From: an uncultured Acidobacteriia bacterium
GTDB lineage: Bacteria > Acidobacteriota > Terriglobia > Bryobacterales > Bryobacteraceae
Direction of reading: 5' to 3'
NCBI GenBank assembly: GCA_903851195.1
Contig: CAINNJ010000008.1
Location: forward strand, 1 to 64,000
DNA length: 64,000 bases
Both the position numbers and the translations under genes were made by a program. The notes below the pieces were generated by a model that had not been told where the DNA came from, made no database searches, and saw nothing but the letters and a program-made list of their open reading frames with translations. Positions within the stretch are counted from its first letter, which is position 1, and each line of letters opens with the position of its first letter. Positions 20,055 to 38,686 of the stretch are shown piece by piece.

Positions 20055-20747
20055 ATGCGAATCTTTGAACCCGTCAAACCTTTGAGAAATGTACTCACTG
20101 TTTCCGCGGCGGTTCTCCTGCTGGCTTTACGCTCCGGGCAGGCGAGCGCCGCAACCATCAACTTCACCTTCACGGGCCCCGGAGTCAGTGGAGCGGTTGC
20201 GCTGGCTTACGGCGCGGCGGCGGACTCCAAATACCCCCAGGCCCTTGAAGTCACCGGCATCAGCGGCTTCTTCTCGGATTCCAACAACGGCCTCAACATT
20301 GTCAATGCTACGATTACTTCGCTCGAAGCCATCCGGCGCGATCCGCCGGAAACAACCAACTTACTCGCTCCCCGTGACTTCAGCAGGTTCGCGGTAACCG
20401 CCGGCCTGCCCGACGAGGACAACGGAAGCCTGAGTTTCGACAATCTCTTCTATCCGAATGGCTCACCGCAGACCGCCTCCGATTACCCGGTGCACGGCGG
20501 CTTCCTCGATATCTACGGCCTGCTGTTCGACATCGGGGGCGGCAGGGTGGTCAACGTCTGGAGCAACGGCGATTTCGGGACGGGCGCCATCGATTACGGC
20601 GTCGCCGTCGCGACCCCCGCAAAGTCTCTGGACTATGTTGGCGGCGGTGTGGCCGCATCGCCCGAACCCGGCGCTTTCGTCCTTCTCGCGGGCGGATTGG
20701 GCGGACTGGTAACCTGGCGGCGGGCGCGGAAATCGCGACTCGTGTAA
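20055..20747 (+). CDS. PEP-CTERM-sorted secreted protein
   Basis: The 230-residue protein has an N-terminal signal peptide (cleavage near S-A-A-T-I) and a classical PEP-CTERM tail: S-P-E-P-G-A, a hydrophobic stretch F-V-L-L-A-G-G-L-G-G-L-V and the basic end W-R-R-A-R-K-S-R. Such tails are recognised by exosortase, linked to exopolysaccharide-producing Gram-negative bacteria. The middle part is a beta-rich domain without recognised family. No exosortase gene is in this window. The sulfatase follows after 14 bases, so they may share a transcript. Confidence 0.88.
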   Translation: MRIFEPVKPLRNVLTVSAAVLLLALRSGQASAATINFTFTGPGVSGAVALAYGAAADSKYPQALEVTGISGFFSDSNNGLNIVNATITSLEAIRRDPPETTNLLAPRDFSRFAVTAGLPDEDNGSLSFDNLFYPNGSPQTASDYPVHGGFLDIYGLLFDIGGGRVVNVWSNGDFGTGAIDYGVAVATPAKSLDYVGGGVAASPEPGAFVLLAGGLGGLVTWRRARKSRLV

Positions 20748-20761
20748 TATTTTGAGGAGTC

Positions 20762-22348
20762 GTGATCTCCTCTTCCCGCCGTACCTTCCTGACCCACGCC
20801 ACCGGCCTTGCAGCGGCACCCCTTCTGGCGCCCTGGGCCCGGGCCCAATCGGCCCGGGGCGCCGCCGCCCGGCCCAACATTCTGTTCATCATGACGGACG
20901 ATCACTCCGCTCAGGCGATCAGTTGTTACGGCAGCAAAATCAATCAGACCCCGTATCTGGACCGCCTCGCCGCGCAGGGCATGCGCATGGACCGCGTCTT
21001 CGTCACCAACTCGATCTGCACCCCCAGCCGCGCTGCCATCCTCACCGGAAAGTACAGCCACCTGAACGGAGTGCCGGTCTTCAACCGTTTCGATGGCTCG
21101 CAACCCCACGTCGCGAAGATGCTGCAGCAAGCCGGCTACTACACCGCCATGGTGGGCAAATGGCACCTCGGCAGCGATCCCACCGGCTTCGACTACTGGA
21201 ACATCCTGCCCGGCCAGGGAGTTTACGAAAACCCGACCCTCTACGACAAGGACGGCTCCACGGTCTACCAGGGCTACGCTACCGACATCATCGCCGACCT
21301 CACTCTCGATGTGCTGAAGAACCGACCCGCGGACAAGCCGTTCTTCATCATGTCCCACCACAAGGCCCCGCACCGCGAATGGACTCCGGACGAGAAGCAC
21401 CGCAAACAGTTCGAGGGCAAACACATTCCGGAACCGCAGACGCTGCGTGACGATTACGCCGGCCGCACCGACGCTCTCCACGAACAGCAGCAGTCCGTCT
21501 TCCGCGATATGACCCGGCGCGATCTCAAAATCCCGCCGCCGCCCGGCCTCTCCGGTCCGCCGTTGCAGCAATGGATGGCCGTGAAGCCAACCGAAGTCGA
21601 AACCGTGGTGGATGGCGTCCGCAAGACCCTCACCGGCAAAGAACTGGAAGACTGGAAATACCAGCGCTACATGCAGGACTACCTCGCCTGCGTCCAGAGC
21701 GTCGACGATAACGTCGGCCGCGTGATGGACTGGCTGGATGACAACGGTCTCAAGGACAACACCGTTGTCATTTACACCAGCGACCAGGGTTTCTTCCTCG
21801 GCGAACACGGCCTGTTCGACAAGCGCTTCATGTACGAAGAGTCGCTGCGCATGCCCTTCCTTGTGCGCTGGCCCGCCGGAATCAAACCGGGCAGCACTTC
21901 GAAGGCGATCGGCATTAACTGCGACTTCGCGCCCACCTTCCTCGATCTGGCCGGCCAACCCACGCCGGGGGACATGCAGGGCCGCAGTTTCCTGCCGGTC
22001 TGGAAGGGCAAGACGCCGAAAGACTGGCGCCATGCCATGTATTACCGTTACTATCACGATCCCGGCGATCACAACACCCGCGCGCATTACGGAGTCCGCA
22101 CCGACGCGCACAAGCTGATTTATTTCTGGAAGAAGGATCAGTGGGAGTGTTATGACCTCACGGCCGACCCCCTCGAACTCCACAACATTTACCAGGACCC
22201 GAAGGCGCAAAAAACGGTAGCGCTGCTGAAGCGCGAACTCTATCGGCTGAAGAAAGAACTGAAAGACGACGACCAGTTCGCCGATAAACAGCCCGAAGAA
22301 TCTTCGTACGTGCCGGCGCCTCCCAAAAAGAAGCCTCTCATTCGCTGA
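20762..22348 (+). CDS. Tat-exported type I sulfatase
   Basis: A 528-residue alkaline-phosphatase-superfamily sulfatase. The N-terminus has a Tat-like signal (S-S-R-R-T-F-L-T-H-A-T). D46-D47 in M-T-D-D-H begin the metal site, and C86 in S-I-C-T-P-S-R is the Cys converted to formylglycine (CxPxR motif). Y-T-S-D-Q-G-F-F-L-G-E-H-G gives further metal ligands and a C-terminal DUF4976-like region follows. It would remove sulfate from polysaccharides or other sulfate esters outside the cytoplasm. The start is GTG with GAGGAG four bases upstream. Its C-terminus is Lys/Pro-rich. Confidence 0.95.
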   Translation: MISSSRRTFLTHATGLAAAPLLAPWARAQSARGAAARPNILFIMTDDHSAQAISCYGSKINQTPYLDRLAAQGMRMDRVFVTNSICTPSRAAILTGKYSHLNGVPVFNRFDGSQPHVAKMLQQAGYYTAMVGKWHLGSDPTGFDYWNILPGQGVYENPTLYDKDGSTVYQGYATDIIADLTLDVLKNRPADKPFFIMSHHKAPHREWTPDEKHRKQFEGKHIPEPQTLRDDYAGRTDALHEQQQSVFRDMTRRDLKIPPPPGLSGPPLQQWMAVKPTEVETVVDGVRKTLTGKELEDWKYQRYMQDYLACVQSVDDNVGRVMDWLDDNGLKDNTVVIYTSDQGFFLGEHGLFDKRFMYEESLRMPFLVRWPAGIKPGSTSKAIGINCDFAPTFLDLAGQPTPGDMQGRSFLPVWKGKTPKDWRHAMYYRYYHDPGDHNTRAHYGVRTDAHKLIYFWKKDQWECYDLTADPLELHNIYQDPKAQKTVALLKRELYRLKKELKDDDQFADKQPEESSYVPAPPKKKPLIR

Positions 22349-22658: not shown

Positions 22659-23213
22659 ATGCGAATTTTTCTGATAGCGGCGTTGTTTTTCACTGCCGCG
22701 GGCTGCCGCGAGGTCAGTTTTCCGGTGCCGCAGCAGCGGTCGATGCCCGAATTCCGGCTCCGGCAGATTCTGGAAATTCGCCCGGAATCCGACGGCTTCG
22801 CCGCCACGGCGCAGAATTCGTCCATAATCGGGGGCGTTCTGCCCGTCGCGCCCGGCCTCGACTGGTCCTGGACCACCGCGCATCCCGCGTTTCGCTTCAA
22901 ACTCGACCAGCCCTCGGGCTGGGACCTCGATATCAAACTCACCACGGCCGATGTCGTTTTCGACAAAATCGGCCCCCAGCAGCTCACTGTCTTGGTCAAC
23001 GGCACCAAGACCGGGTCCGCGACGCTGGATCAGTGCCGCACCTGGCTCCTCCGCTTCCCCGTTGCGCCCGCGCTGCTCCCGGATCCGGCCGAGACCCGCG
23101 TGACCCTCGCCATCGCTCCCTGCCTCCCCCAGCCCGAAGGACCGCCGCTCTGCATCCTTCTGCATAACGTCGGCTTCACCCGGCCCCTCACCGCGCAGGA
23201 CCCCGGCCGATGA
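22659..23213 (+). CDS. Lipoprotein of unknown function
   Basis: This 184-residue product begins with a short signal peptide and lipobox (F-T-A-A-G-C), so it should be lipidated at about residue 16. The rest looks beta-rich (W-D-L-D-I-K-L-T-T-A-D-V-V-F and L-T-V-L-V-N-G-T) and resembles carbohydrate-binding or jelly-roll-type domains only in a general way; I do not recognise a family. The stop overlaps the ATG of the membrane glycosyltransferase by four bases (ATGA). The coupling suggests that the two proteins are made in equal amounts and act together at the envelope. Confidence 0.8.
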   Translation: MRIFLIAALFFTAAGCREVSFPVPQQRSMPEFRLRQILEIRPESDGFAATAQNSSIIGGVLPVAPGLDWSWTTAHPAFRFKLDQPSGWDLDIKLTTADVVFDKIGPQQLTVLVNGTKTGSATLDQCRTWLLRFPVAPALLPDPAETRVTLAIAPCLPQPEGPPLCILLHNVGFTRPLTAQDPGR

Positions 23214-25417
23214 CCGCTCTGCGCATCCTCTTCGCCGCTCTCTTCGTCTACGCCGCCTGCCGCGCCTGCGGACAACTGCTTTTCAGTGCCCTCGGCCTCT
23301 CTTTCCGCCGCGGCGAGCTCGCCTTCCTCGAATTCCTTACGGGCGCCGCGCTCTTCAGCACCCTGGTTTTCTGCCTCGCCGCCACCCATCTGGTCTATAC
23401 CTCCGTGCTGGTGACCGCAGGCGCCCTCCCGATCCTGGCCGCGTACCGCTTCCGGCGGACACAACCAGCCCCGCCCTCCGATGCACCGCTGACCCTCGCC
23501 TGGAAACTCCTCTTCGGGATCCCGTATCTGGTCTTCGGCCTTCTCTACCTGATCATCGCCATGGCCCCGGAAACCAGCCCCGACGGCGCCGGCTATCACC
23601 TCGGCCTCATCAGCCGTTATTACGACCACCGCGGCTTCTACCACATCTCCACGAACATGTACGCCGGACTGGCCGAAGGCATCGAGATGCTCTTCCTCGT
23701 CGCTTTCGCTCTCGGCCGCCACTCCGCCGCCGCCCTGGTCCACCTTCTTTTTCTGCTCACGCTTCCTTTCGGCATGAGGGCCTGGGCCGAACGGAATGCC
23801 GCGCCCCGCGCCGGAATCCTCGGCGCGCTTCTCTTCTTCCTGGCGCCCCTCGCCGGAAAAGACGGCACCATCGCGTACATCGACGTCGCGACCGCGGCGG
23901 TCGTCTTCGGCGCTTTCAGCCTGCTCGAAATCTGGCGCACCGAGCGCGCCGATTCCGTCCTGCTCCCGGCGGGACTCCTCGCCGGCTTCGCCCTGGCCTG
24001 CAAGATCACGGCTGGCCCTGTCCCGGTCGCCGCCGTCCTCTACGTGTTGGTCGTGTCCCGGTCTGTCCGCCTCGCCGGCCGCACCGCCTTCTTCGCCTTC
24101 CTTGCGGCCGCGCCCTGGCTCATCAAAGACGCCATCCAGTTCCAAAATCCTTTTTTCCCCCTCTTCAACCACTGGTTCCCGAATCCGTACCAATACCCCA
24201 TGGTCGAAAGCGAACTGCGCCGGCTCATGCAGCATGTCAGCGACGTGCCCGGGTGGCAAATTCCCTGGCAGGCCGTTGTTGGCGGAAAACTGTTCGGCGT
24301 TCTCGGGCCGGTGTTTCTGCTCGCGCCCCTCGCGCTTCTCGCCCTGCGCACCGCGCCGGGCCGTATGCTGCTGCTCGCCTTTTTTGTGGCGGTTCTGCCG
24401 TTCGCGACGAACACCAACGCGCGTTTCCTGCTCCCCGCGCTTCCCTTTCTCGCCCTCGCTTTGGCCTTCGGAATCGTCGGGATCCCCCGCGTTGGCCCCG
24501 CCCTTGGCGGCGCGGTGTTGCTGCTGCACGCTGGTCTGTCCTGGCCCGATTTCATCGATCGCTGGTCGCCCGGTTACCAGTGGCGTATCGACCGGCCGCC
24601 CGTTGCCACCGCCCTCCGCGTGGCCTTCCGCGTGGTTCCCGAGAAAACCTTTCTGAACGACCAGTGGCGCGAATACGCTCCCGGGCTCCTGCTCGACCGC
24701 TTCGTGCCCCCCGGCGAGAAAGTCTTCTCACCCGACATGGGCCAGATGGCCTACCAGCACCGCGATCTCCTCGGCACCTTCGATTCCGCGCTGGGCCGAC
24801 GGGCTTTTCTCCTGTTCATCATGGGCCAGGCCAAAGAACTGGCCGGCACCTGGCATCGTGAAATCCACTTCCCCCCTGTCACCGCCTCCAGGCTTCGCGT
24901 CGCCACCCGCAACGCCGTCGATAATGATCTGCGCATCAGTGAGATGCGCTTTGCCCTGGGCCAGACCGAGGTCGTCCGGGAACCTTCGTGGCGCCTCTCC
25001 GCCTCGGCCAACCCGTGGGAAGTGCCCTACGCCTTCGACAACAACCCCGTCTCCTGGTGGACCTCCGGCCAGACCGTATCGCCCGGGCTCTTCCTTCAGG
25101 TCGACTTCGGCCACCCCGTCACGCTCGATCGTGTCCTCCTCTCGCAAAGCGTGGACCAGCGCTGGACGTCGCTGCGCCCCGTCGCGCTGCTGAACGGCGT
25201 CTGGACGCCCCTCCGCTCGCGCGAAAACGACTACGAAGAACCGCCGCGACCTTCCATCCGGATGGAAGTCGCCGACGAATTCAAGCACCTGGGCATCCGC
25301 TGGATCCTCATACCCGACGGCTCTTACGGAGCGAACGATCTGCTCGAAAAAGCTCCGTACTGGGGTATTACGCGGATCGCCGAAGCCAATGGCTACCGGC
25401 TCTGGAGGATTAACTGA
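23210..25417 (+). CDS. Polytopic membrane glycosyltransferase (GT-C/PMT-like) with discoidin-like C-terminal domain
   Basis: A 735-residue protein with roughly ten membrane helices in its first 470 residues. The first large loop contains P-E-T-S-P-D-G-A-G-Y-H, the Asp-containing loop typical of GT-C enzymes such as the PMT/ArnT and GT83 groups that use lipid-linked sugars. A segment about 560-680 (N-D-L-R-I-S-E-M-R-F, W-W-T-S-G-Q, L-F-L-Q-V-D-F-G-H-P-V-T-L-D-R-V) looks like an F5/8-type (discoidin) sugar-binding fold, presumably outside the cytoplasmic membrane. The gene overlaps the upstream lipoprotein (ATGA) and its TGA shares a base with an ATG of the sensor gene. Donor and acceptor are unknown. 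Confidence 0.83.
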   Translation: MTALRILFAALFVYAACRACGQLLFSALGLSFRRGELAFLEFLTGAALFSTLVFCLAATHLVYTSVLVTAGALPILAAYRFRRTQPAPPSDAPLTLAWKLLFGIPYLVFGLLYLIIAMAPETSPDGAGYHLGLISRYYDHRGFYHISTNMYAGLAEGIEMLFLVAFALGRHSAAALVHLLFLLTLPFGMRAWAERNAAPRAGILGALLFFLAPLAGKDGTIAYIDVATAAVVFGAFSLLEIWRTERADSVLLPAGLLAGFALACKITAGPVPVAAVLYVLVVSRSVRLAGRTAFFAFLAAAPWLIKDAIQFQNPFFPLFNHWFPNPYQYPMVESELRRLMQHVSDVPGWQIPWQAVVGGKLFGVLGPVFLLAPLALLALRTAPGRMLLLAFFVAVLPFATNTNARFLLPALPFLALALAFGIVGIPRVGPALGGAVLLLHAGLSWPDFIDRWSPGYQWRIDRPPVATALRVAFRVVPEKTFLNDQWREYAPGLLLDRFVPPGEKVFSPDMGQMAYQHRDLLGTFDSALGRRAFLLFIMGQAKELAGTWHREIHFPPVTASRLRVATRNAVDNDLRISEMRFALGQTEVVREPSWRLSASANPWEVPYAFDNNPVSWWTSGQTVSPGLFLQVDFGHPVTLDRVLLSQSVDQRWTSLRPVALLNGVWTPLRSRENDYEEPPRPSIRMEVADEFKHLGIRWILIPDGSYGANDLLEKAPYWGITRIAEANGYRLWRIN

Positions 25418-28400
25418 TGTTCCGGCATCGGTTACTATTGTTAGTTAACTTTTGTTTCCAACATGCAAACCTGGCGCGTAAGCGTTTCTGGTCCGGGTCG
25501 TCCAGCGGCCCGGCACTTTCGCCGATGACTTTCCGCCCTTCCCTGCGCCTGGCGCCTGTCCTCTTTACGCTCCTTCTCGCCGCCCTTCCGGCGGGCGCCC
25601 AGCAGTACGCGTTCGAATATTTCGGCATCGAACAGGGGCTTACCAATCTCTCGGTGAAGTCCATTTACCAGGATCACGCCGGCTTTATCTGGGTAGCCAC
25701 CGAAAACGGCCTGTTCCGCTACGAAGGCGTGCGATTCCGGCAGTTCACGCCCAGCCAGGGCCTTCCGTCCAGCGTCACCGCTTCCCTCGGCGAAAGCGCG
25801 GATGGCACCGTGCTTGTCGGCAACCAGTCGGGCCTGTTCCGGCTGCGGGGAGAGCAGTTTGAGAAGATCGCCCTGCCCGCCGGCAAGAAGGTGAACGGCT
25901 ATAACAGCATCGTCATGGACGGCGCCCGCACCTGGATTGGCACGGACGAAGGCCTGTTCATGATGTCCCCGCGGCCGGAAGGGGCTTTCGTCCTGCAGCC
26001 GGGACCCGCGCCGCCGCCTGGCATCAAACCGGACGTCCAGAGCATCTACACGCAGGACCACAAAATCTGGTGGGGCTGCGGAAATTCGCTTTGCCTGTCG
26101 GAGAACGGCAAGGTGGAATCCTATGGAGAGTCCGCCGGCCTCTCCGGCGCCCGCGTTCAGGCCATCGTGAGCGACCACGAGGGGAATGTCTGGGTCTCTT
26201 ACAACCGGCGCCTTCTGATTCTGCGCCCCGGCGCGTCCGTATTTGAGGATGCCGATCCCTCGCTGCCCTCGCTCGGCCCCGGCAGCAGCCCCCGCGTCGA
26301 TTCCGATGGCCGCCTGCTCGTCCCCACGACCGGCGGACTCGCCATCCGGGACGGCGGCCGCTTCCGACTCGAAGGCCGGTCCGCCGGTCTTCTTCCCCCC
26401 GTTTACTCGGTTCTGCAGGATCGCGAAGGTTCGGTCTGGATCGGTCTGGCCGGCCGGGGTCTCGCCAAGTGGCTTGGGTACAGCGAATGGGAAAGTTTCA
26501 CGGCCCAAAGCGGTCTCACGGGGGAAACCGTCTATGAAATCCTCCCGGTCGGCCCCGACACTCTCTGGGTCGGCACCGAAGCCGGCTTCTTCCGCGGAAA
26601 ACGCGGTGAATTCGCCTGGGACTGGCAACAGCAGCGCGCCTTCGGGCAACTTCCCGTCCATGCGGTCCAGTTGGCCGCCGACGGCGCTCTCTGGCTCGGC
26701 ACGGATGGCAAAGGCGTCGCGCGCTTCGACACCAAATCCGGCAGCGTCCGCTGGTTCAGCCGCGACGCGGGACTCACCGCCAACTCTTCCAATACCGTCC
26801 TGATCGACCGCGCGCAAAACGTCTGGGCCGGCACGGAGAACGGTGTCTTCATGAGCCCGGCCGGCTCCGGCCGGTTTCACCGCATCGAGATTGACGCCGA
26901 GCGCTGCTGGGCCCTGCTCGAAACGCCCAACGGAGATATCTGGGCGGGCGCCAAAACCGGTCTCTGGCAATTCTCCGGCGGCAACTGGCGTCAATACAAG
27001 AAACAGGACGGACTGGTGAGTGAGGCCGTGGTCTCGCTCGCGTCCGACGCAGCCGGGGTGGTCTGGCTCGGTTACCGGCTGGCCGGAACCATCACGAGAC
27101 TGCGCTTCGACCCGGCCTGCAAGGCGCTCTTCGATCACTTCAACCCCCATTCGGGCCGCGCCACCGACATCACTTATTTTCTGGGCTTCGACGTCAGAAA
27201 CCGCCTCTGGGCCGGCACGAACCTCGGCGTCCTTGTGCTCGACCAGATCACCGGACGGTGGGACCGCTTCGACCACCACGACGGACTCATCTGGGACGAT
27301 TGCGACCTGCATGCCTTTGCCTCTGAAGCCGACGGCCACGTTCTGATCGGCACTGCCGGGGGCCTGTCGCGCTTCCTGCCGCGTGCCCATCCCGTGCAGC
27401 CCGGGCCGCCCCAGACCGTCTTTACCAGCGTCTTCAACGGCAGGTCCGAAATGGATCTCTCCCACCCGCTCGACATCAGGTACTCTTCCGAAGCGCTCAT
27501 CGCCCGGTTCACCGCTCTTCGGTTTGGCCGCGATCGCGATCTGATGTTCCGCTATCGCCTGACCCCGGTTGTCTCATCGTGGAAGGAAACGCCCGACCGC
27601 GAACTGCAGTTTCCGGCTTTACCGCCCGGCTCCTACCGGCTTGAAGTCGAGGCCCGCGACTCGCGAACCGGCTGGACGGAAACGCCCGCCGTGCTCAACT
27701 TCCGCGTGCTCGCTCCGTGGTGGCGAACCGGGTGGTTCACCCTGAGCTGCATCGTGTTCGGAGTCATCCTTGCCGGCTACCTGCTCCGCCGCAGAAACCA
27801 GCAGGAAGTAGCGGTCCGCCATGCCCTCGAAAACGCCGTGGCCGAACGCACCCGTGAACTCTCTCATCAGTACCGGCACGACGTCTTAACCGGGCTCCCC
27901 AACCGCCTCCTCTTTGGCGAGCGGCTCAGCCGGGAGATCCTCGACAGCGACCGTTCCGGCGCCCGCGTGGCCGTGCTCTTCATCGACCTCGATCGCTTCA
28001 AGCGCATCAACGACACCTGGGGCCACCAGACCGGCGATCTCTTCCTGAAACAGATCTCCGAGAGGCTCCGCGGCGGCCTGCGCGACAACGAAACCATCGC
28101 CCGCATCGGCGGGGATGAGTTCATCGTCCTGATCCCGGGACTCTCCGATAAGCGCGAGGCCGAGATCCGCGGATGGGATCTGTTGCGCACTCTCGAATCC
28201 CCTGTTCGGATCGAAGGCAAGAATGTGTTCGCCACCATGAGCGTCGGTATCGCCGTCTTCCCCGACGACGCCCGCGAACCCGGCGCCCTCATGGCGGCCG
28301 CGGACGCCGCCATGTACCGCGCCAAGGGCTCCGGCAAGAACCAGATCCAGTTGTTCGAGGCCGGTATGACGGAAGCCGCTTCCCGTCCTCAGAACATCGA

Positions 28401-29160
28401 AGACCGGCTCCGGGAAGCGCTCAAGAACACCGGTTTCCGGCTTCGCTACCAGCCCCAATACACGCTCGACGGAAAACTGGAGGCTTTCGAGGCGCTGCTC
28501 CGTATCGAGGGCTTCGAAAAGGAGTTGCCGCCGGGTGAGTTTATTCCGATCGCGGAAGAGAGCGGCCTCATTGTCGAGATCGGCGCGTGGGTCCTGCGGG
28601 AAGCCTGCCGCCAGATGAAGGAATGGCACGACGATGGCTACCCCGATATCCGGATCGCCGTCAACGTCTCCGTCATGCAGCTGGCGCACCCCGGCTTCGA
28701 GGATTACGTTATGGAGGTGATCCGCGAGACCGGCATCGATCCCGGACGCCTCGAACTCGAACTTACCGAAACCGCTCTGGTCAAAGATACGGGCGACCCA
28801 GCCGGCCTGCTCAACCGGATCCGCGCCCGCGGCATCCATGTGGCGCTCGACGACTTCGGCACCGGCTATTCACCCATGCAGTATCTTCACCAGTTGCCCG
28901 TGGACGTGGTCAAGATCGATCAGGTCTTCGTGCGCGACCTCGACGCCCGGCCCAGCAGTCTGCCGCTGGTGGTCGGGATGGTCAACCTCGCGAGAACGCT
29001 CTCGCTGCGCGTCGTCGCGGAAGGCGTTGAAACTGAAGCGCAGTTCGCCATCGTGCGACGGGTGGGCTTCAATACCGTTCAGGGCAACCTGTTTTCGTTG
29101 CCCGTCCCCCCCGGCGAAGCCCGCGAACTGCTTCGGCGCGGGTCGTTCGTCAATGCCTGA
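25417..29160 (+). CDS. Reg_prop beta-propeller / Y_Y_Y sensor with GGDEF and EAL output domains
   Basis: This 1247-residue protein has a signal peptide, a periplasmic beta-propeller of Reg_prop repeats (about 75-640; repeated G-x-I/V-W-x-G-T/A-x-x-G-L), a Y_Y_Y domain (about 690-765), one membrane helix (about 773-795), a GGDEF domain with intact G-G-D-E-F near residue 898, and an EAL domain with E-A-L-L-R near 1025, D-D-F-G-T-G-Y-S and A-E-G-V-E-T. Both c-di-GMP synthesis and hydrolysis motifs are complete; the inhibitory-site position reads R-D-N-E in place of R-x-x-D. Two starts are possible: ATG 25417, with GGAGG eight bases upstream, or ATG 25525, where the signal peptide begins. The 36 codons between them are AT-richer and may instead be a leader. 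Confidence 0.92.
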   Translation: MFRHRLLLLVNFCFQHANLARKRFWSGSSSGPALSPMTFRPSLRLAPVLFTLLLAALPAGAQQYAFEYFGIEQGLTNLSVKSIYQDHAGFIWVATENGLFRYEGVRFRQFTPSQGLPSSVTASLGESADGTVLVGNQSGLFRLRGEQFEKIALPAGKKVNGYNSIVMDGARTWIGTDEGLFMMSPRPEGAFVLQPGPAPPPGIKPDVQSIYTQDHKIWWGCGNSLCLSENGKVESYGESAGLSGARVQAIVSDHEGNVWVSYNRRLLILRPGASVFEDADPSLPSLGPGSSPRVDSDGRLLVPTTGGLAIRDGGRFRLEGRSAGLLPPVYSVLQDREGSVWIGLAGRGLAKWLGYSEWESFTAQSGLTGETVYEILPVGPDTLWVGTEAGFFRGKRGEFAWDWQQQRAFGQLPVHAVQLAADGALWLGTDGKGVARFDTKSGSVRWFSRDAGLTANSSNTVLIDRAQNVWAGTENGVFMSPAGSGRFHRIEIDAERCWALLETPNGDIWAGAKTGLWQFSGGNWRQYKKQDGLVSEAVVSLASDAAGVVWLGYRLAGTITRLRFDPACKALFDHFNPHSGRATDITYFLGFDVRNRLWAGTNLGVLVLDQITGRWDRFDHHDGLIWDDCDLHAFASEADGHVLIGTAGGLSRFLPRAHPVQPGPPQTVFTSVFNGRSEMDLSHPLDIRYSSEALIARFTALRFGRDRDLMFRYRLTPVVSSWKETPDRELQFPALPPGSYRLEVEARDSRTGWTETPAVLNFRVLAPWWRTGWFTLSCIVFGVILAGYLLRRRNQQEVAVRHALENAVAERTRELSHQYRHDVLTGLPNRLLFGERLSREILDSDRSGARVAVLFIDLDRFKRINDTWGHQTGDLFLKQISERLRGGLRDNETIARIGGDEFIVLIPGLSDKREAEIRGWDLLRTLESPVRIEGKNVFATMSVGIAVFPDDAREPGALMAAADAAMYRAKGSGKNQIQLFEAGMTEAASRPQNIEDRLREALKNTGFRLRYQPQYTLDGKLEAFEALLRIEGFEKELPPGEFIPIAEESGLIVEIGAWVLREACRQMKEWHDDGYPDIRIAVNVSVMQLAHPGFEDYVMEVIRETGIDPGRLELELTETALVKDTGDPAGLLNRIRARGIHVALDDFGTGYSPMQYLHQLPVDVVKIDQVFVRDLDARPSSLPLVVGMVNLARTLSLRVVAEGVETEAQFAIVRRVGFNTVQGNLFSLPVPPGEARELLRRGSFVNA

Positions 29161-29335: not shown

Positions 29336-30457
29336 TCAGTCCGTATAAAAACGCTTCACCCGCGCGCTGATACCGCACAGCACGTTGTAAGAGATGGTTC
29401 CGGCCGTCTTCGCGATCTGCTGCGCGTCCAGCGAGACTTCGCCTTCGCGCCCCAGGAGAGTCACTTCATCGCCTGGCCGCAGAAAGGGCGATGAAGTAAT
29501 GTCGATGGTGGTCAGATCCATGGAGACGGTTCCGACAATGGGCGCGAATTTTCCGCCGGCAATCACTTTGCCTTTGTTCGACAGGCGGTGCGGCACGCCA
29601 TCCGCGTAGCCCGCCGCGAGCACCGCGAGGCGCATCGGAGCGGGCGCGGTAAACGATCCGCCGTAGCCGACTTTGGCTCCTTCCGGCACATCTTTCACGG
29701 TGACGATCCGGGTCTTCCATGTGAGTGCCGGTTTCACCGTGAACACGGCCGCGGGAGCCGGTCCGCGCGCGGGCGAAACGTACCCGTAAATCGCATGTCC
29801 GGGCCGCACCAGGGACAACCAGGCTTTTCTTCGCGGATAAGCGATCGCGTTGGTGCTCGAGAAGTGCATCAGCGGCGGATGGATGCCCCGCACCGCCAGT
29901 TCCGCGGCCATCTTCCGGAACGCCGCGATCTGTTCCTCGGTCTGGGACGAGACGAAATCCGTCGCGGACGCGAAATGCGACATCAGGCCTTCCACGCGGA
30001 CCAGCGGGGCGGCTGCCAGAGCCGCCGCGATCTCCGCTGCCGAAGCGCGCGTTCCCAGCCGGTCCATGCCCGTGTCGATCTTCAGGTGGACGTCGAGCGG
30101 CCCTTCCTGCTGCAAAAACGGAAGTTCGTCGAGCGAGTGCACCACGGGCGTGAGACGGAACTCGCGGAGCGCCTGCCGCTCCCAGCCCATCACGCCGGCC
30201 ATCACGAGGATGCGGCCGGGAATGCCCGCGGTCCGCAGCGTGACGCCCTCTTCCACGGAACTGACCGCCAGCCATTCGGCGCCCTCGCCCACCAGCACAC
30301 GCGCCACCTCCACCGCGCCATGGCGGTACGCGTCCGCTTTCACGACGCCGATGATACCGGCCGACGCGCCGATGGCATGGCGGACCGCGCGGTAATTCGC
30401 CGCAATCCGGGATCGGGAGATTTCCACGTAACAACGAGCTGGAATGGACTCTCGCAC
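29336..30457 (-). CDS. alr: Alanine racemase
   Basis: A 373-residue PLP-dependent racemase that makes D-alanine for peptidoglycan. K40 in G-V-V-K-A-D-A-Y is the PLP lysine, and the second catalytic Tyr lies in K-V-G-Y-G-G-S-F in the C-terminal beta domain. V-D-L-T-T-I-D-I and G-D-E-V-T-L-L-G are also family motifs. The usual A-Y-G-H-G sequence after the lysine reads A-Y-R-H-G, with R45 in place of glycine. The start lies six bases from the upstream glycosyltransferase stop, so alr is the last gene of the glycan-cluster transcript. Confidence 0.95.
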   Translation of the reverse strand: MRESIPARCYVEISRSRIAANYRAVRHAIGASAGIIGVVKADAYRHGAVEVARVLVGEGAEWLAVSSVEEGVTLRTAGIPGRILVMAGVMGWERQALREFRLTPVVHSLDELPFLQQEGPLDVHLKIDTGMDRLGTRASAAEIAAALAAAPLVRVEGLMSHFASATDFVSSQTEEQIAAFRKMAAELAVRGIHPPLMHFSSTNAIAYPRRKAWLSLVRPGHAIYGYVSPARGPAPAAVFTVKPALTWKTRIVTVKDVPEGAKVGYGGSFTAPAPMRLAVLAAGYADGVPHRLSNKGKVIAGGKFAPIVGTVSMDLTTIDITSSPFLRPGDEVTLLGREGEVSLDAQQIAKTAGTISYNVLCGISARVKRFYTD

Positions 30458-30463
30458 GAACCG

Positions 30464-31546
30464 TTATTGTCGCAGGGCCGAGAGCAGGTTGACATACTCC
30501 GTTGTGACGACATCCCAGTCGTACCGCTCGCGCACGCGCTGTACGGCGCGTGCGCGGAAGGCTTCGCGCTCGGCTTCCGTCATCGCGAGCACCTGGCGCA
30601 GGCGCTCGGTGAGCCCCGCCTGATCGTCATAGGCCAGCCCGGCGTCGCCGCAGACCTCGCGGTTCTCGTCGGTATCCAGATAGATCACCAGACAGCCACG
30701 CCCCATGGCCTCGATCAGCGCCGGATGCGTCCCGCCCACCTCCGTCGCGTGGATATAGGCGAAACACCACGACCCGAGTTCTTTGTAGCCAAGGCCGTAG
30801 ATCGCCCCTGGCAGGACGACACGTGGATCGACCGTATCCCGAACCTTCCGGATGTACTCGTGCGCATACGGCGCATCACCGACCAGAGCGAGCTTCAGGT
30901 CCGTCACCACCTGCTCGAAGGCGAGCCGCACTTCGAGGCCGCGGTTCTCCGGTTCCATCCGGCTGACGTAGAGGAAGAAGCGCAGGGGCTGCAGCCCGAG
31001 TTCGTCCAGAACGCCCATGCTGGGCACCCGGCGCGGATCGGCGCCATAGGCGATAAAGCGCGACTCCTTGCCGTACTCATCCCGATAGTACCGGCGGATC
31101 GCCTCGGCGTCGGTCACGAACGCCGTCGGGAAGATGGTCGACAGAACTTCGGAACAGCGATACCACGCTTTCGCCAGCGCGTTCCACTTCTTCCGCTTCC
31201 GCTCGATGCCGTCGACATTCAGCAGCACCGGCACGCCGCTCAGGCGCGGCAGGATCGTGAACACCGCGTTGGCTGCATTGCAGTAGAGCGCGACGTCGGT
31301 CCGGTGAAAGAACAGGTGGAGAGTCGAGAGGAACGTGTGGGCCAGCGTGTCGAGGTATTTGTGGCGAATGGTCGGCAGATAGACGAGTTCGACGCCCTGG
31401 TAGGTGGCCGAGGAATGCTTCGCCCGGCAATAGACGCGGACGCGGTGACCTCGGGACGCGAGCCGCGTGGACAGTTCTTCGGCAAAGGTTTCGAAACCGC
31501 CGTAATTCGCAGGAATTCCCCGTGTGCCGAGGATCGCAATAAACAC
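30464..31546 (-). CDS. Family 4-like glycosyltransferase with DUF1972 N-terminus
   Basis: A 360-residue GT-B enzyme. The N-terminus I-L-G-T-R-G-I-P-A-N-Y-G-G-F-E-T-F-A-E matches the DUF1972 N-terminal domain of rhamnosyl- and other surface-sugar transferases (Cps2T-like). The C-terminal half has L-F-L/F-L-Y-V-S-R-M-E-P-E-N and T-H-P-A-L-I-E-A-M-G-R-G, the donor-binding E-x7-E-like region. It would add a sugar to a lipid-linked saccharide at the inner membrane. It is preceded by three GT2 genes on the same strand with short gaps (15 bases to the nearest). Confidence 0.91.
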   Translation of the reverse strand: MFIAILGTRGIPANYGGFETFAEELSTRLASRGHRVRVYCRAKHSSATYQGVELVYLPTIRHKYLDTLAHTFLSTLHLFFHRTDVALYCNAANAVFTILPRLSGVPVLLNVDGIERKRKKWNALAKAWYRCSEVLSTIFPTAFVTDAEAIRRYYRDEYGKESRFIAYGADPRRVPSMGVLDELGLQPLRFFLYVSRMEPENRGLEVRLAFEQVVTDLKLALVGDAPYAHEYIRKVRDTVDPRVVLPGAIYGLGYKELGSWCFAYIHATEVGGTHPALIEAMGRGCLVIYLDTDENREVCGDAGLAYDDQAGLTERLRQVLAMTEAEREAFRARAVQRVRERYDWDVVTTEYVNLLSALRQ

Positions 31547-31561
31547 CGACTGTCTGACGCC

Positions 31562-32611
31562 CTAACGCCGAGTCGGCTTGGGAGGAGTCAGCGCAGCGGC
31601 GAATTTCTTCGGAGCGGGTTTACTGACCGGCTCGAAATTAAACCAACTGGCAATGTACGCGTCATCCACGCGCTGGCGGCTCATGATTTCACGCCGCTTG
31701 GCCCAGATATTTCGCCAGTTCCGGAACAGGAACGGGAACGCGCGCAGGGACGTGTGCTCCCACAGCAGGCAGCACGAGACGACAACGATATCGCGAACGG
31801 TGATGGAGAAGAAGTTCCGCCGGTAGAGATCCGGCGTCATGTTTTTGATCCGCAGCAGGAACCGGTTCTTCACCGAGTGCATGTTGATCTCGGCGGGCAA
31901 CGCGCGCCGATTGCCTGGCAGCGCTTTCCGAACGTGATAGCCCTTGGCGTACGGCGCATAGAGGCATCGCCAGCCCATGAGCTGCGAGCGCCAGGCGACA
32001 TCGGCGTCTTCGCGATAAACAAAGAAATCTTCGTCGAAGAACTCGCCGCCGATCGCGATATCTTCGATCATTTCCCGGCGGTACAAGGCCGCCGCGGCCG
32101 TGGCTCCGAAGACGTATTCGTAGTTGCGGAAGTGCCCGTTATCCACCTGCAGGCTGCCGCGGTCGAGGTGGCGGAGATTGGGGGTGAAGTAGATGCCGGT
32201 GGAATCGACCAGAGGCTCTTCGGGAAAGTCGAAGCCCGCCGTCATGGTCAGCAGTTTCCCGCAGACGGTGCCGACCTTCGGATCGAGGTTGCCCGCGTTG
32301 ACCAGAGCTTCGAGAAAACCCTGCAACAGCAGGACGTCCGGATTGAGCGTCAGCACCCACTCGGAACTGGAAAGTCCGATCGCCTGATTCTGAGCAGCGG
32401 CGAAACCGATGTTTTCTTCGTTGTAGACGATTCTGCAGCGATCCTCGAAGGGCTCGAGAATATCGATGGTGCCATCGCTGGAGTTGTTATCAATGACGAT
32501 GATTTCCCTGAGCGGATAGTTCTGATCAAGGACCGATTCAAGGCAACGCTTAATAAAGCGGCCACTGTTGTATGTGACGATCGTTACCGAAACGAAGTCG
32601 CTACGGGACAT
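31562..32611 (-). CDS. Family 2 glycosyltransferase
   Basis: This 349-residue protein has a GT-A fold of family GT2: V-S-V-T-I-V-T-Y-N-S-G at the start, the nucleotide-binding V-I-D-N-N-S-S-D-G-T, L-N-P-D-V in place of DxD, and F-F-V-Y-R-E-D-A-D-V-A-W-R-S as the catalytic E-D-x-D region. The pattern is that of rhamnosyltransferase-like enzymes. The ATG at 32611 is preferred since the fold begins six residues later; a GTG at 32632 is possible. The gap to the preceding GT2 gene holds two copies of AGCAAGATCA-like sequence. Confidence 0.91.
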   Translation of the reverse strand: MSRSDFVSVTIVTYNSGRFIKRCLESVLDQNYPLREIIVIDNNSSDGTIDILEPFEDRCRIVYNEENIGFAAAQNQAIGLSSSEWVLTLNPDVLLLQGFLEALVNAGNLDPKVGTVCGKLLTMTAGFDFPEEPLVDSTGIYFTPNLRHLDRGSLQVDNGHFRNYEYVFGATAAAALYRREMIEDIAIGGEFFDEDFFVYREDADVAWRSQLMGWRCLYAPYAKGYHVRKALPGNRRALPAEINMHSVKNRFLLRIKNMTPDLYRRNFFSITVRDIVVVSCCLLWEHTSLRAFPFLFRNWRNIWAKRREIMSRQRVDDAYIASWFNFEPVSKPAPKKFAAALTPPKPTRR

Positions 32612-32679
32612 GTACGCGCGGGCCTGCTCCACTCATGAATTTTCACGCAAGATCATTTCAAGCAAGATCAATTGTCACG

Positions 32680-33627
32680 TCAGAACACAGTAGAACATTC
32701 GCCAGGCACCGGCCGAAAAATCCAGCCAATAGCAAGACGGACAACGGCACCATGGACAGCAACCGCTTTCAAAACGCCGCGCGCGCTTCCAGCCCTCAGC
32801 ATTGCAGGAACCGCGCGAGCCACTGCTCCGGAGACAACAGCGAAACACAAAACCCGGAATATCAACGGGCGATAGTGTTTCGCTCCATACTCAAGAAGAC
32901 TACCATACCAATATAGTTGCCGAATCTCCAGCGGGAGAGTACTAACAGAGTGACCTCCCGTATGTTTTGCGACTGCTTCCGGATTAAAGAACACCCGGTA
33001 ACCGCCGCGCTTCAGCCTGGCACAGAAATCCACATCCTCGAACCACACAGGCCGGAACCGCTCATCGAAACCACCCACTTTTCCGAAGGCTTCCCGCGAG
33101 AACATGAGGAAAGCTCCGGCCGGTTGTTCCACCGGACACCGGTTGTTTGCATCTACTCCTAAGCACCGGTAATGCCAATTGACAGGGTTGGCCGGCCAGA
33201 GGCGATTGATGCCGAGAACTTCCAGAAGCAGGGCAGCGGGAGTGGGCAGATTCCGGGCCATGAAACCGCTCTGGGGCTTGCCGTCGGAGCCGGTGAGCAG
33301 ACCTCCCGCCGCGCCCGTCCGAGGGTCTGAGAACTCGGATTCCAGAGCGCTTAATCCACACTCCAGATGCGCATCAGGATTCAATAAAAGCACGAATGGC
33401 GCGGAGGTGGCGTGTACTCCCTGGTTCACCGCTCCGGCGAAGCCGCGGTTGTCGGCGTTGGCGAGCAGGCGAACGCCGCGGCGCTTCACCTCATCGCGGG
33501 TCGGGTCCGAAGAGGCGTTGTCGACAACCAGGATCTCGACGTCGGAGAGCGGGGCGAGCGCATCGAGGCAGCCGCCGATTTCCGATGCCGAGTTGTAGGT
33601 GACGATAACGATTGCGACACGGGCCAT
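32680..33627 (-). CDS. Family 2 glycosyltransferase
   Basis: A 315-residue GT2 enzyme with V-A-I-V-I-V-T-Y-N-S-A, V-V-D-N-A-S-S-D, L-L-N-P-D-A and W-F-E-D-V-D-F-C-A-R-L motifs, like rhamnosyltransferases of O-antigen clusters. A hydrophobic segment near the C-terminus (L-C-F-A-V-V-S-G-A-V) may hold it at the membrane. It begins three bases after the preceding GT2 gene stop, so the two are co-translated. The 3' end is AT-richer than its neighbours. Confidence 0.92.
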   Translation of the reverse strand: MARVAIVIVTYNSASEIGGCLDALAPLSDVEILVVDNASSDPTRDEVKRRGVRLLANADNRGFAGAVNQGVHATSAPFVLLLNPDAHLECGLSALESEFSDPRTGAAGGLLTGSDGKPQSGFMARNLPTPAALLLEVLGINRLWPANPVNWHYRCLGVDANNRCPVEQPAGAFLMFSREAFGKVGGFDERFRPVWFEDVDFCARLKRGGYRVFFNPEAVAKHTGGHSVSTLPLEIRQLYWYGSLLEYGAKHYRPLIFRVLCFAVVSGAVARAVPAMLRAGSARGVLKAVAVHGAVVRLAIGWIFRPVPGECSTVF

Positions 33628-33630
33628 GTG

Positions 33631-34620
33631 TCAATTCGCCGCAGTCCGGGAGGCACTTCGGGAGGCGCTTTGCGAGGACAGAAGAAAATACCAGCGCCAG
33701 TAAGAGCCGGTGGCGCGGGCCTCGATCTCCCTTTCGGAGGCGGTGAGGAATTCCCGGACCCGGGCGTTCGGACGGCCAGCCAGCCGGAAGCCCCGGAGTC
33801 CGTCCCGCTTACCGGCCAGCCAGGCAAGGGCGGCGCCGTGACGCCACGCGACCAGGCCCCAGAGCAACTGTCCCGATAGTATGGCTCGCAGACACGAACG
33901 GAACAGAGGCCGGTCGTAGTGCCGCGAGACGAGCAACAACTGATTCCTCGAGATGAGGCGGACGACGGCCGGGTTCCAGCGTCCGAGTGTCGCGCTGCCG
34001 TGGTGCCAGGCGATGGCATCGGGCACATAAACACCGGTGAGTCCTTCGCGGAGACAGCGGAGGCCGAGATCGACGTCTTCGAGGTAAGATCCGAACGTTT
34101 CGTCGAAGCCGCCCATTCTTTGCAGAATCTCGCGACGGAAGAGGCAGGCCGTGCCCGGTGCGATAGCAATGGGTGAGGCCAGGCCGGGCGAGGCGGCGCG
34201 AGGCTCGCCATGGCCCGCGCGCCACGCGCAACCGGCGCGCGTTACCAGATCGTAGGTGCCGTCGACCACGGTATGGTCCGAGGCGCGGAGGATCAGTCCG
34301 GTGGCAAAGGCAGCGCCTTCGTCGTGAGCGAGAAGACGCTCGAGCCAGCAGGTGTCCAGTTCCACGTCGCTGTTGAGGATGGCGACCCACTCCGTTGTGG
34401 CGTCACGCCAGCCGATGTTCACGGCCCGGGCGAAGCCGAGGTTCTCGCCGGCGCGGATGACACGGCAGCCGTGGCGCCGGGCCACTTCGACAGCGTCGTC
34501 GGTCGAAGCGTTATCGACCACAATCATCTCGGCGAACGGCGCCGACTGGGCGTGCAGGGTCCGCAGCAGACGGTCGAGCAGGTCGGCGCGGTTATGGACG
34601 GGAATGACAGCGGTTATCAC
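33631..34620 (-). CDS. Family 2 glycosyltransferase
   Basis: A 329-residue GT2 enzyme: I-T-A-V-I-P-V-H-N-R-A at the N-terminus, V-V-D-N-A-S-T-D, I-L-N-S-D-V for the metal/nucleotide site, and Y-L-E-D-V-D-L-G-L-R-C-L for the catalytic region. It is the first gene of the downstream half of the glycan cluster. Its start is 19 bases from that of an opposite-strand gene (34640), so this short gap must hold both ribosome binding sites and promoters, or the GT gene is driven by read-through from the cluster upstream. Confidence 0.92.
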   Translation of the reverse strand: MITAVIPVHNRADLLDRLLRTLHAQSAPFAEMIVVDNASTDDAVEVARRHGCRVIRAGENLGFARAVNIGWRDATTEWVAILNSDVELDTCWLERLLAHDEGAAFATGLILRASDHTVVDGTYDLVTRAGCAWRAGHGEPRAASPGLASPIAIAPGTACLFRREILQRMGGFDETFGSYLEDVDLGLRCLREGLTGVYVPDAIAWHHGSATLGRWNPAVVRLISRNQLLLVSRHYDRPLFRSCLRAILSGQLLWGLVAWRHGAALAWLAGKRDGLRGFRLAGRPNARVREFLTASEREIEARATGSYWRWYFLLSSQSASRSASRTAAN

Positions 34621-34639
34621 CTGTACACTTGTGATTGTA

Positions 34640-35077
34640 ATGAAATGGTTTCCCGTTCTGTTCGTTTTGAGTAGCGTAGCCCTCGGGCAGCGTCCCGTGA
34701 GCCGTTCCGTCTATGTGTTTCCGATGGCGGCCGGGCTGGACCAGTACCTGGCGTCGCAGATCACGCAGGACCACGTGATGCAGGTGGTGGCGGATCCGAA
34801 GCTGGCCGATACGGTTCTGACGGACCGGCTGGGAGAGGCGTTCGAGCAGTCGCTGGCGAAGCTCCATCCCCGGGACGAAGATCCGGACGATTCGGAAGCC
34901 CCGCACCACTCCTTCCGGTCGAGCGGAACCAAAGGCACGGTGTTTCTGGTGGATGCCAAATCGCGCGAAGTGATCTGGTCGGATTACGAGAAGCCGGCGC
35001 GCACGGTTTCCGGCAAGAGCCTCAATCGCCGCGCCGAACGGCTGGCGAAGAAACTGCAGGCGATGGCCGGTAAGTAG
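34640..35077 (+). CDS. Small secreted protein of unknown function
   Basis: The 145-residue product has a signal peptide (M-K-W-F-P-V-L-F-V-L-S-S-V-A-L-G) and then a soluble domain with D-H-V-M-Q-V-V-A-D-P-K-L-A-D-T-V-L-T-D and V-F-L-V-D-A-K-S-R-E-V-I-W-S-D. The latter pattern (a stored value compared with a D-A-K/T-x-x-x-V-V-W segment) recurs in Acidobacterial secreted proteins, but I do not know its role. It lies on the plus strand inside a minus-strand glycan cluster and its 3' end overlaps the 3' end of the large glycosyltransferase by 56 bases. The ATG at 34640 is chosen by the signal peptide. Confidence 0.78.
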   Translation: MKWFPVLFVLSSVALGQRPVSRSVYVFPMAAGLDQYLASQITQDHVMQVVADPKLADTVLTDRLGEAFEQSLAKLHPRDEDPDDSEAPHHSFRSSGTKGTVFLVDAKSREVIWSDYEKPARTVSGKSLNRRAERLAKKLQAMAGK

Positions 35078-37421: not shown

Positions 37422-38686
37422 TGACCGGGCTCCACGTTGAGTACAGGCCCGAGATGAAGGCGGCGGCCCAGACGGAGCCATTTCGAGTTCGCGACCTGCA
37501 GCCGCTCGGCCTGCAGGTGTTCGATGCGGCGCCAGTGCTGGTCGAGGAGTTGGGACTGGCGATTCAGGTGCTCCTGGTGCTCGCCGATTTCCGCGGCCTG
37601 TAACTGCACGTGGCGGGTCTTAATGTCCAGCTGCTCTTCGAGGGACATGGCCCAGGCAGTGCGCGAGGCGACCTCGGTCCGGAGCCGGGCAATTTCGGCG
37701 GTTCCCTGCGCGATAGCAGTCTCCAGATCGTGAATCCAGCCAAGCCGGATTTCGGCCTCGCCCTGCAGTTCCGCGATGGCGAGACGGCCTTTCATAATTT
37801 CGTCGTTGAGGCGGGCAGCCCAGTCATTGCGCTGCCGCAGTTCCACGAGAGTTTCCTCATGCGTGAGTTGCAGGCGGGAATGGTCGGCAGTCAGTTGCCG
37901 CAGCCACGCGTCTTTTTTGGCGAGTTCGCCTTCAAGTTTGGCGATGTGGTGTTCGCGCTCGCGGAGCAGGTTGGCGGTGGAAGGCAGCCAGGCGTGCACA
38001 TCGTTGGCGGCGAGGGACGAGTGACTGCAGGCGGCGAGGAAGAAGTGGGCCGTCTCCGGAGCGGCGTTGCCCGGGGCATCAAGTGTGCCGCCGGAGGGAT
38101 GCGCGGGAGCGAAGACAATCGCCTCCGCGTGGTTCTGCGTCCAGAGGCGCACGTGGGGGAAGACGGCATAAAGCGCTGCTTCGAATTCCGCGTATTCGAA
38201 TTCGTGGCAGTGGAAGGGATTGGGTCCGGCGGCGGCGCGGGATTCGGCGTAGTAAGACTGATTGGGCGTGGAAACCAGCAGTACGCCGGAGGGCCGGAGG
38301 ACGCGGGCCGCTTCGGTGAGCAGTTGCGGCCAGCGTTCCAGATGCTCAATCACTTCGAAGGCGGTGAGGAGGTCGAAGGAAGCGTCGGCAAAGGGCAGCG
38401 AGTCGCAGGAGGCCTGCAGGAAGCGCACGCCGGGGCGGGAAAAGTTTTCGCGGGCGTGGGACACGGCTTCGGCGGCGACGTCGAAGGCGGTAACGGAAGC
38501 AGCCTGGCTAAACTCGGCGATGCCGTAGCCGGAGCCGCAACCCGCGTCGAGCACGTGGGCGCCTTCGCTGAAACGCGCCGCAAAGCGATAACGGGCCAAA
38601 TGTTCGTTGAACAGGTTGTCATCCACCAGACCCGGAATGACGCGCTCCCCCGTGAACTCAGACAAGCCGAGGCTCCGGAGACTCAT
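37418..38686 (-). CDS. SAM-dependent methyltransferase with long C-terminal coiled coil
   Basis: The 422-residue protein has a class I methyltransferase domain (V-L-D-A-G-C-G-S-G-Y-G at about 45-55, A-F-E-V-I-E-H-L, L-R-P-S-G-V-L-L-V-S-T-P-N) and, from about residue 240 onward, a heptad-rich Glu/Gln/Arg/Leu coiled coil. This resembles WbdD-type proteins, where a methyltransferase linked to a coiled coil caps the O-antigen chain and measures its length before export by a Wzm/Wzt transporter with a carbohydrate-binding Wzt tail. The adjacent Wzt-like ATPase fits that model. No kinase domain is seen, unlike in E. coli WbdD. It overlaps its two neighbours by 4 and 29 bases. Confidence 0.88.
   Translation of the reverse strand: MSLRSLGLSEFTGERVIPGLVDDNLFNEHLARYRFAARFSEGAHVLDAGCGSGYGIAEFSQAASVTAFDVAAEAVSHARENFSRPGVRFLQASCDSLPFADASFDLLTAFEVIEHLERWPQLLTEAARVLRPSGVLLVSTPNQSYYAESRAAAGPNPFHCHEFEYAEFEAALYAVFPHVRLWTQNHAEAIVFAPAHPSGGTLDAPGNAAPETAHFFLAACSHSSLAANDVHAWLPSTANLLREREHHIAKLEGELAKKDAWLRQLTADHSRLQLTHEETLVELRQRNDWAARLNDEIMKGRLAIAELQGEAEIRLGWIHDLETAIAQGTAEIARLRTEVASRTAWAMSLEEQLDIKTRHVQLQAAEIGEHQEHLNRQSQLLDQHWRRIEHLQAERLQVANSKWLRLGRRLHLGPVLNVEPGQ

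Follow-up and report, generated by a model that had tools for sequence, protein, structure and literature searches.

A conserved lipoprotein and GT-C glycosyltransferase gene pair in Bryobacterales and its probable later neighbor, a propeller-GGDEF-EAL sensor gene

Three consecutive genes in a 64,000-nucleotide stretch of DNA (the window) from an uncultured Acidobacteriia bacterium of the Bryobacteraceae raise the question of whether a lipoprotein, a membrane glycosyltransferase, and a propeller sensor form one system, as proposed in an original prediction made from the sequence. The window open reading frame list placed the genes, all on the forward strand, at 22659-23213 (184 aa), 23210-25417 (735 aa), and 25417-29160 (1247 aa); all three were present and their predicted domains held. 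They are termed LIPO, GTC, and SENSOR below, and the features of the locus were as follows:

22659..23213, + strand: LIPO, a 184-aa lipoprotein with a carbohydrate-binding-module-type beta-sandwich, lipobox Cys16, and a subsequent PPxQR motif (open reading frame, alignment, model, and fold search)
23210..23213, + strand: ATGA, the 4-base overlap of the LIPO stop and the GTC start (sequence; identical in L066, L070, L071, and L073)
23210..25417, + strand: GTC, a predicted 735-aa GT-C glycosyltransferase with extra N-terminal helices (residues 1-80), a GT-C core (approximately 92-466), and a periplasmic soluble domain to residue 735 (model, VIA, conserved residues, and PMT_2)
24836..25207, + strand: CBM32/discoidin-like domain inside the GTC soluble domain, residues 543-666 (VIA, profile match, and Pfam in relatives)
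25411..25434, + strand: 10-bp hairpin with a 4-nt loop over the GTC stop codon, then a weak U-rich stretch (folding; weak evidence)
25525..29160, + strand: SENSOR, 1211 aa, with a signal peptide, Reg_prop repeats, Y_Y_Y, one transmembrane helix (736-754), GGDEF, and EAL (Pfam, homology, and motifs)

The genes had been described as overlapping by 4 and 1 bases, of which the former stood: the LIPO/GTC overlap was also present in the four nearest relatives with a LIPO gene. The 1-base overlap of GTC and SENSOR is doubted because homology and the signal peptide indicate a start at 25525. Residues 1-36 of the mechanical open reading frame were without counterpart in the orthologues, similarity began at approximately residue 40-50 with the orthologues' N-terminus being a signal peptide, and M37 (25525) opens a canonical signal peptide ending AGA-QQ. 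M37 is probably the best start and the 1-base overlap mechanical, giving a GTC-SENSOR gap of 107 nt, while a longer product starting at 25417 is possible because GGAGGA was located 7 nt before that ATG. The hairpin over the GTC stop codon might act as a partial terminator; it is not named as such because it was only slightly stronger than shuffled sequence (z -2.0; 7 of 200 shuffles folded equally well), and it was not obvious by eye in genome G009.

The association of LIPO with GTC was followed by scanning a GTC alignment against one genome per species (84,980 species), yielding 79 loci from relatives that were nearly all labelled Acidobacteriota and mostly Bryobacterales. With a LIPO profile iterated from six sequences, LIPO was identified immediately before GTC in 60 of these loci, the distance from its stop to the GTC match being -4 to 44 nt, and several of the loci without an upstream LIPO end at contig boundaries. 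The pairing reached another family of the order, where a LIPO gene lay 11 nt before a GTC gene (L180) whose product is 33% identical to the window GTC. The surrounding genes also recurred, with a BadF/BcrA-type kinase gene downstream of GTC in 46 loci (often with a 4-base overlap), a peptidase M20 gene and phosphoglycerate kinase after the kinase in many loci, and endonuclease III often upstream. At L124:7234-12148, a single LIPO gene was followed by a tandem pair of transferase genes.

LIPO is not always needed, as the GTC orthologues of G014, G017, and G018 occur without it and overlap an alkaline-phosphatase-type/TPR/sulfotransferase fusion gene by 4 bases (L051:8513-13851, L058:481-5576, and L053). 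The housekeeping GTC copies in the source genome and G009 also had no upstream LIPO, and the LIPO of G007 was shortened by an in-frame stop. The small gene that precedes the housekeeping GTC of the source genome was considered as a LIPO relative and rejected, its sequence looking NUDIX-type.

The LIPO profile matched three places in the source genome, namely the window and contigs C9 and C20. At C9:148817 (L158:6817-9261), a second LIPO gene and a different GT-C-like gene share a 4-base overlap, and the product of the latter resembles the LIPO domain at its C-terminus when compared by eye; at C20:41686 (L059:7681-9525), another GT-C-type membrane protein carries the LIPO beta-sandwich domain as a C-terminal fusion. 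Pfam searches of the C9 and C20 GT-C-like proteins gave zero matches, their GT-C type being read from sequence. Relatives held pairs similar to that on C9 (L176, overlap -4; L182, overlap -1) and, in many cases, long-frame matches similar to the C20 fusion. This recurrence of the pairing, both within the source genome and among relatives, constitutes the strongest evidence that LIPO and GTC may work together. The occurrence in 60 of 79 loci along with the second pair and the fusion strongly supports a two-gene unit kept across one order of soil bacteria; the lipoprotein/transferase link of the original prediction is thus strongly upheld and its three-gene system weakly so.

The history of SENSOR beside this pair was more restricted. 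A tree of 82 transferases placed the window GTC, with a support of 100, in a clade of eight, apart from the housekeeping-type copy of its own genome on contig C4 that adjoins a kinase gene, which makes the window copy a derived paralogue. The clade included the window, G009, G015, and G007, with an adjacent sensor; G016, with two genes (an outer-membrane barrel gene and one other) between GTC and the sensor; and G014, G017, and G018, with the sensor elsewhere than GTC. SENSOR was the intact immediate neighbor of GTC in the first four genomes only, where the trio was present in three unrelated flanking contexts and, because these contexts are unrelated, has survived rearrangement. SENSOR orthologues were identified in ten genomes and the sub-clades of their tree matched those of the GTC tree, which suggests that the ancestor of one sub-clade of one genus already had the trio. 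Among 19 congeneric genomes, nine contained both genes (including the decayed GTC of G011), one SENSOR only, none the GTC paralogue only, and nine neither (Fisher p ~1e-4, a value uncorrected for shared descent).

SENSOR has been kept at least twice where GTC was lost. In G003, it lies at the ftsY/ribD site that it also occupies in G015 and G007, but LIPO and GTC are missing, and in G011 (L037:3487-4852) an open SENSOR long frame lies beside a GTC paralogue that has accumulated many frameshifts and stops, some of which may be sequencing error in this fragmented assembly of 83% completeness. None of the fetched loci outside the sub-clade had SENSOR next to GTC. A locus of strain F-183 (L118:12220-15415) with LIPO, GTC, a kinase gene, and then a GGDEF-EAL gene was rejected as independent support, given that the input domain of the latter differs and that chance alone would put approximately three GGDEF genes into the 1.3 Mb of fetched loci because the genome, 7.7 Mb in size, has 20 GGDEF places.

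These data bear on two explanations for the position of SENSOR. The first is that SENSOR is functionally unconnected to the pair and lies beside it through a gene-order accident inherited in one sub-clade, a reading that falls somewhat short of even odds: the adjacency is confined to that sub-clade and has been repeatedly broken, and the abundance of GGDEF genes makes chance neighbors expected, but the trio outlasted replacement of its flanks on both sides and the GTC paralogue occurred in no genome without SENSOR. The second, as originally modeled, is that LIPO, GTC, and SENSOR are one regulated system in which SENSOR reads the GTC-made glycan and sets c-di-GMP for its use or export. This is unlikely, since the persistence of the trio across flanking contexts, the shared sub-clades of both trees, and the co-occurrence pattern that favor it are opposed by the retention of SENSOR at the G003 syntenic site and beside the frameshifted GTC of G011, by the separated or interrupted arrangements in four genomes of the clade, by the absence of the adjacency from the fetched loci outside the sub-clade, and by a 107-nt structured gap in place of an overlap. 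The original prediction had held that scattering of the genes in related genomes would count against a joint system, and such scattering was partly found because SENSOR is absent beside GTC in the fetched loci outside the sub-clade, lies apart from it in three genomes, and is intact without it in G003 and G011. The three-gene system as proposed is therefore over-read and the two-gene unit is the durable finding, while SENSOR is best read from the gene orders and trees as having joined the LIPO/GTC pair later and only in one sub-lineage. That SENSOR controls or senses the work of the pair is doubtful.

Structural comparison pointed to the probable activity of the pair. The GTC model, built on 56 relatives, had a mean pLDDT of 95.4 and a pTM of 0.94, and its membrane core and soluble domain compared by VIA with those of the GT-C enzymes Pmt4 and AglB (both Z 21) and ArnT (Z 20), with a multi-helix GT-C membrane core evident at Z 20-21 across 340-428 residues. 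The residues P120-E121, D125-G126, and Y129-H130 were invariant in 56 of 56 sequences, and E121 and D125 provide the acidic residues in the first periplasmic loop of the core, their equivalence to the ArnT aspartate being judged by alignment offset. The PMT_2/GT39 family (PF13231) scored below its cut-off for the window GTC (21.7 vs 26.1 bits) and was matched in 51 of 56 relatives at E <= 0.01. Similarity to the LIC_10190 family membrane protein (NF047510) was weak, covering residues 197-330 at 30.7 bits against a cut-off of 100, and GTC was not assigned to it.

Within the soluble domain, GTC residues 543-666 aligned with residues 642-778 of galactanase BT0290 (6eon; Z 11.2, rmsd 3.0, 119 aligned), indicating a discoidin fold, and the same region gave a profile E of 5e-5 to glucanase/chitosanase discoidin domains. 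F5_F8_type_C was below its gathering cut-off for the window protein (22.6 vs 28.2 bits) and matched in 41 of 56 relatives. The domain is nested and not a tail, because the last strands of the soluble domain come after it. GTC is accordingly predicted from the model to be a GT-C membrane enzyme with a nested CBM32-like domain; of the earlier description as a membrane glycosyltransferase with a sugar-binding tail, the model and relatives bore out the GT-C and discoidin parts and the nested position removed the tail.

The lipobox AAGC at LIPO residues 13-16 predicts lipidation, and Cys16 (54 of 55 relatives), P24 (54 of 55), and Q26 (52 of 55) were conserved, with the most conserved positions of the protein being W69, the family's R70, W71, G105-P106, and the PPxQR motif. 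The model, built on 55 relatives, was a beta-sandwich with a pLDDT of 90 for which the best Foldseek match was BcsB of cellulose synthase (E 6.5e-6). By VIA, it scored Z 11.5 with the CBM22 region of Xyn10B, approximately 11 with CBM35, and 11.4 with BcsB 5eiy_B residues 52-188 (125 aligned, rmsd 3.3), in agreement with a carbohydrate-binding-domain fold, while Eph and Reelin domains had Z near 10, almost as high as the carbohydrate-binding modules. A Pfam search of the window LIPO returned zero families above cut-off; AraC_binding_2, itself below cut-off, and BetaGal_ABD2 were weak matches inconsistent among members and were rejected, and comparison of the sequence with solved structures gave chance-level matches only.

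LIPO resembles the first carbohydrate-binding domain of BcsB, which is the periplasmic partner of a membrane glycosyltransferase, cellulose synthase; a like role is proposed for LIPO. It is not a full BcsB, which has approximately 650 residues, multiple domains, and the GT2 synthase BcsA as partner, whereas LIPO is one lipid-anchored domain of 184 aa with 16% sequence identity and a GT-C partner. Fold similarity is no proof of binding, and LIPO is thus a candidate sugar binder by fold likeness. That it is a membrane-anchored stabilizing or assembly subunit of GT-C enzymes with an incidental beta-sandwich is improbable: its conserved tryptophans, R70, G105-P106, and PPxQR may not line a carbohydrate cleft, many beta-sandwich domains bind proteins, and the Eph and Reelin scores are close, but its best fold matches are the sugar-binding domains of BcsB, CBM22, and CBM35 and its partner GTC itself has a CBM32-like domain.

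In the third gene, Reg_prop, Y_Y_Y, GGDEF, and EAL all exceeded their Pfam cut-offs and a single transmembrane segment followed the signal peptide. The complete diguanylate cyclase and phosphodiesterase motifs attributed to it were intact (RIGGDEF, EALLR, ELTE, DDFGTGYS, KID, AEGVE, and QGN), with the caveat that the position of the RxxD inhibitory site reads RDNE. The RxxD site is not required for activity. The architecture itself is not new, since Reg_prop/Y_Y_Y sensors are present in Xanthomonas GGDEF proteins (PMC6637768) and in Bacteroides hybrid two-component sensors, in which Y_Y_Y propellers bind oligosaccharides (PMC3243724). SENSOR shares the large periplasmic propeller and Y_Y_Y input with the Bacteroides HTCS and with Xanthomonas GdpX2/GdpX3, and a GGDEF output with the latter; it differs in combining GGDEF and EAL in one protein, these domains replacing the kinase, receiver, and AraC domains, so that it is not an HTCS member. 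Glycan sensing by SENSOR is plausible because the Bacteroides propellers bind oligosaccharides and the Xanthomonas ones occur with GGDEF, and on this analogy would be a reasonable function.

The best joint explanation, to which a probability of approximately 0.55 is given, is that LIPO and GTC form a periplasmic glycosylation unit with an acceptor-binding lipoprotein and that the propeller-GGDEF-EAL sensor was added later. On the periplasmic side, the inner-membrane GTC would transfer a sugar from a polyprenyl-phosphate carrier to a glycan or glycoprotein acceptor, while the nested CBM32-like domain and the lipid-anchored LIPO would bind either the acceptor or the product and bring it to GTC; we infer the donor, the acceptor binding, and a direct LIPO-GTC contact. 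In its sub-clade, the pair would have come to lie upstream of SENSOR, which probably senses a periplasmic glycan or the state of the envelope and changes c-di-GMP. The locus yielded no polyprenyl-phosphate-sugar synthase and no flippase. GT-C enzymes act outside the membrane, where they build and decorate glycans; in the cases known, the sugar-binding module is within the same polypeptide. If true, a separate conserved CBM-fold lipoprotein paired with GT-C enzymes would supply the acceptor in a new way, and the pairing gives an uncharacterized protein family a testable role.

The closest parallels for such a unit are enzymes carrying the module in cis. In GT136 ORF12 of Citrobacter youngae, a CBM within the GT-C enzyme binds the acceptor O-antigen backbone, and EmbC also has a CBM (PMC11127046). 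GTC is similar to GT136 ORF12, EmbA/B/C, and AftD (PMC11127046) in its GT-C fold, periplasmic side, attached CBM-type domain, and presumed lipid-linked donor, but it shares no sequence family with them, its CBM32-like domain is nested in the soluble domain, and an extra CBM-type lipoprotein is present in trans. With ArnT/PMT (GT83/GT39) and PglB-type enzymes it has in common the core fold (Z ~18-21) and the acidic residues in the first periplasmic loop of the core, and it differs by its extra N-terminal helices, nested CBM, and sub-threshold PMT_2. Open-licence papers on propeller and GGDEF proteins, LIC_10190, and GT-C enzymes with lipoproteins and CBMs contained no description of the LIPO/GTC pair.

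A bolder version is that the Bryobacterales CBM-type lipoproteins, which have no Pfam family, are dedicated in-trans acceptor-binding subunits of GT-C enzymes with a role like that of BcsB, and that in one lineage a duplicated pair became connected to a propeller-GGDEF-EAL receptor, which detects the product of the pair and sets c-di-GMP; taken as a whole, this would be quite a long shot. If SENSOR does answer to the product of the pair, glycan decoration would be tied directly to c-di-GMP.

Further genes of the window were recorded beside the trio. A sulfatase of the N-sulphoglucosamine sulphohydrolase type (20762-22348) lies 310 bp upstream of LIPO and was not found beside the trio of the relatives, and a protein encoded at 20055-20747, with no Pfam match, has by eye a PEP-CTERM-like C-terminal sorting signal (SPEPGAFVLLAGGLGGLVTWRRARKSR). 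On the minus strand, the region 30464-39956 encodes a GT4, several GT2, a GT2-GT1 fusion, a methyltransferase, and an ABC transporter ATPase with a Wzt C-terminal domain. This exopolysaccharide-type cluster was rejected as a partner of the trio, to which it is not adjacent in G009, G015, and G007 within contig reach. The cluster is flanked by alanine racemase (29336-30457) and D-Ala-D-Ala ligase (40041-41018).
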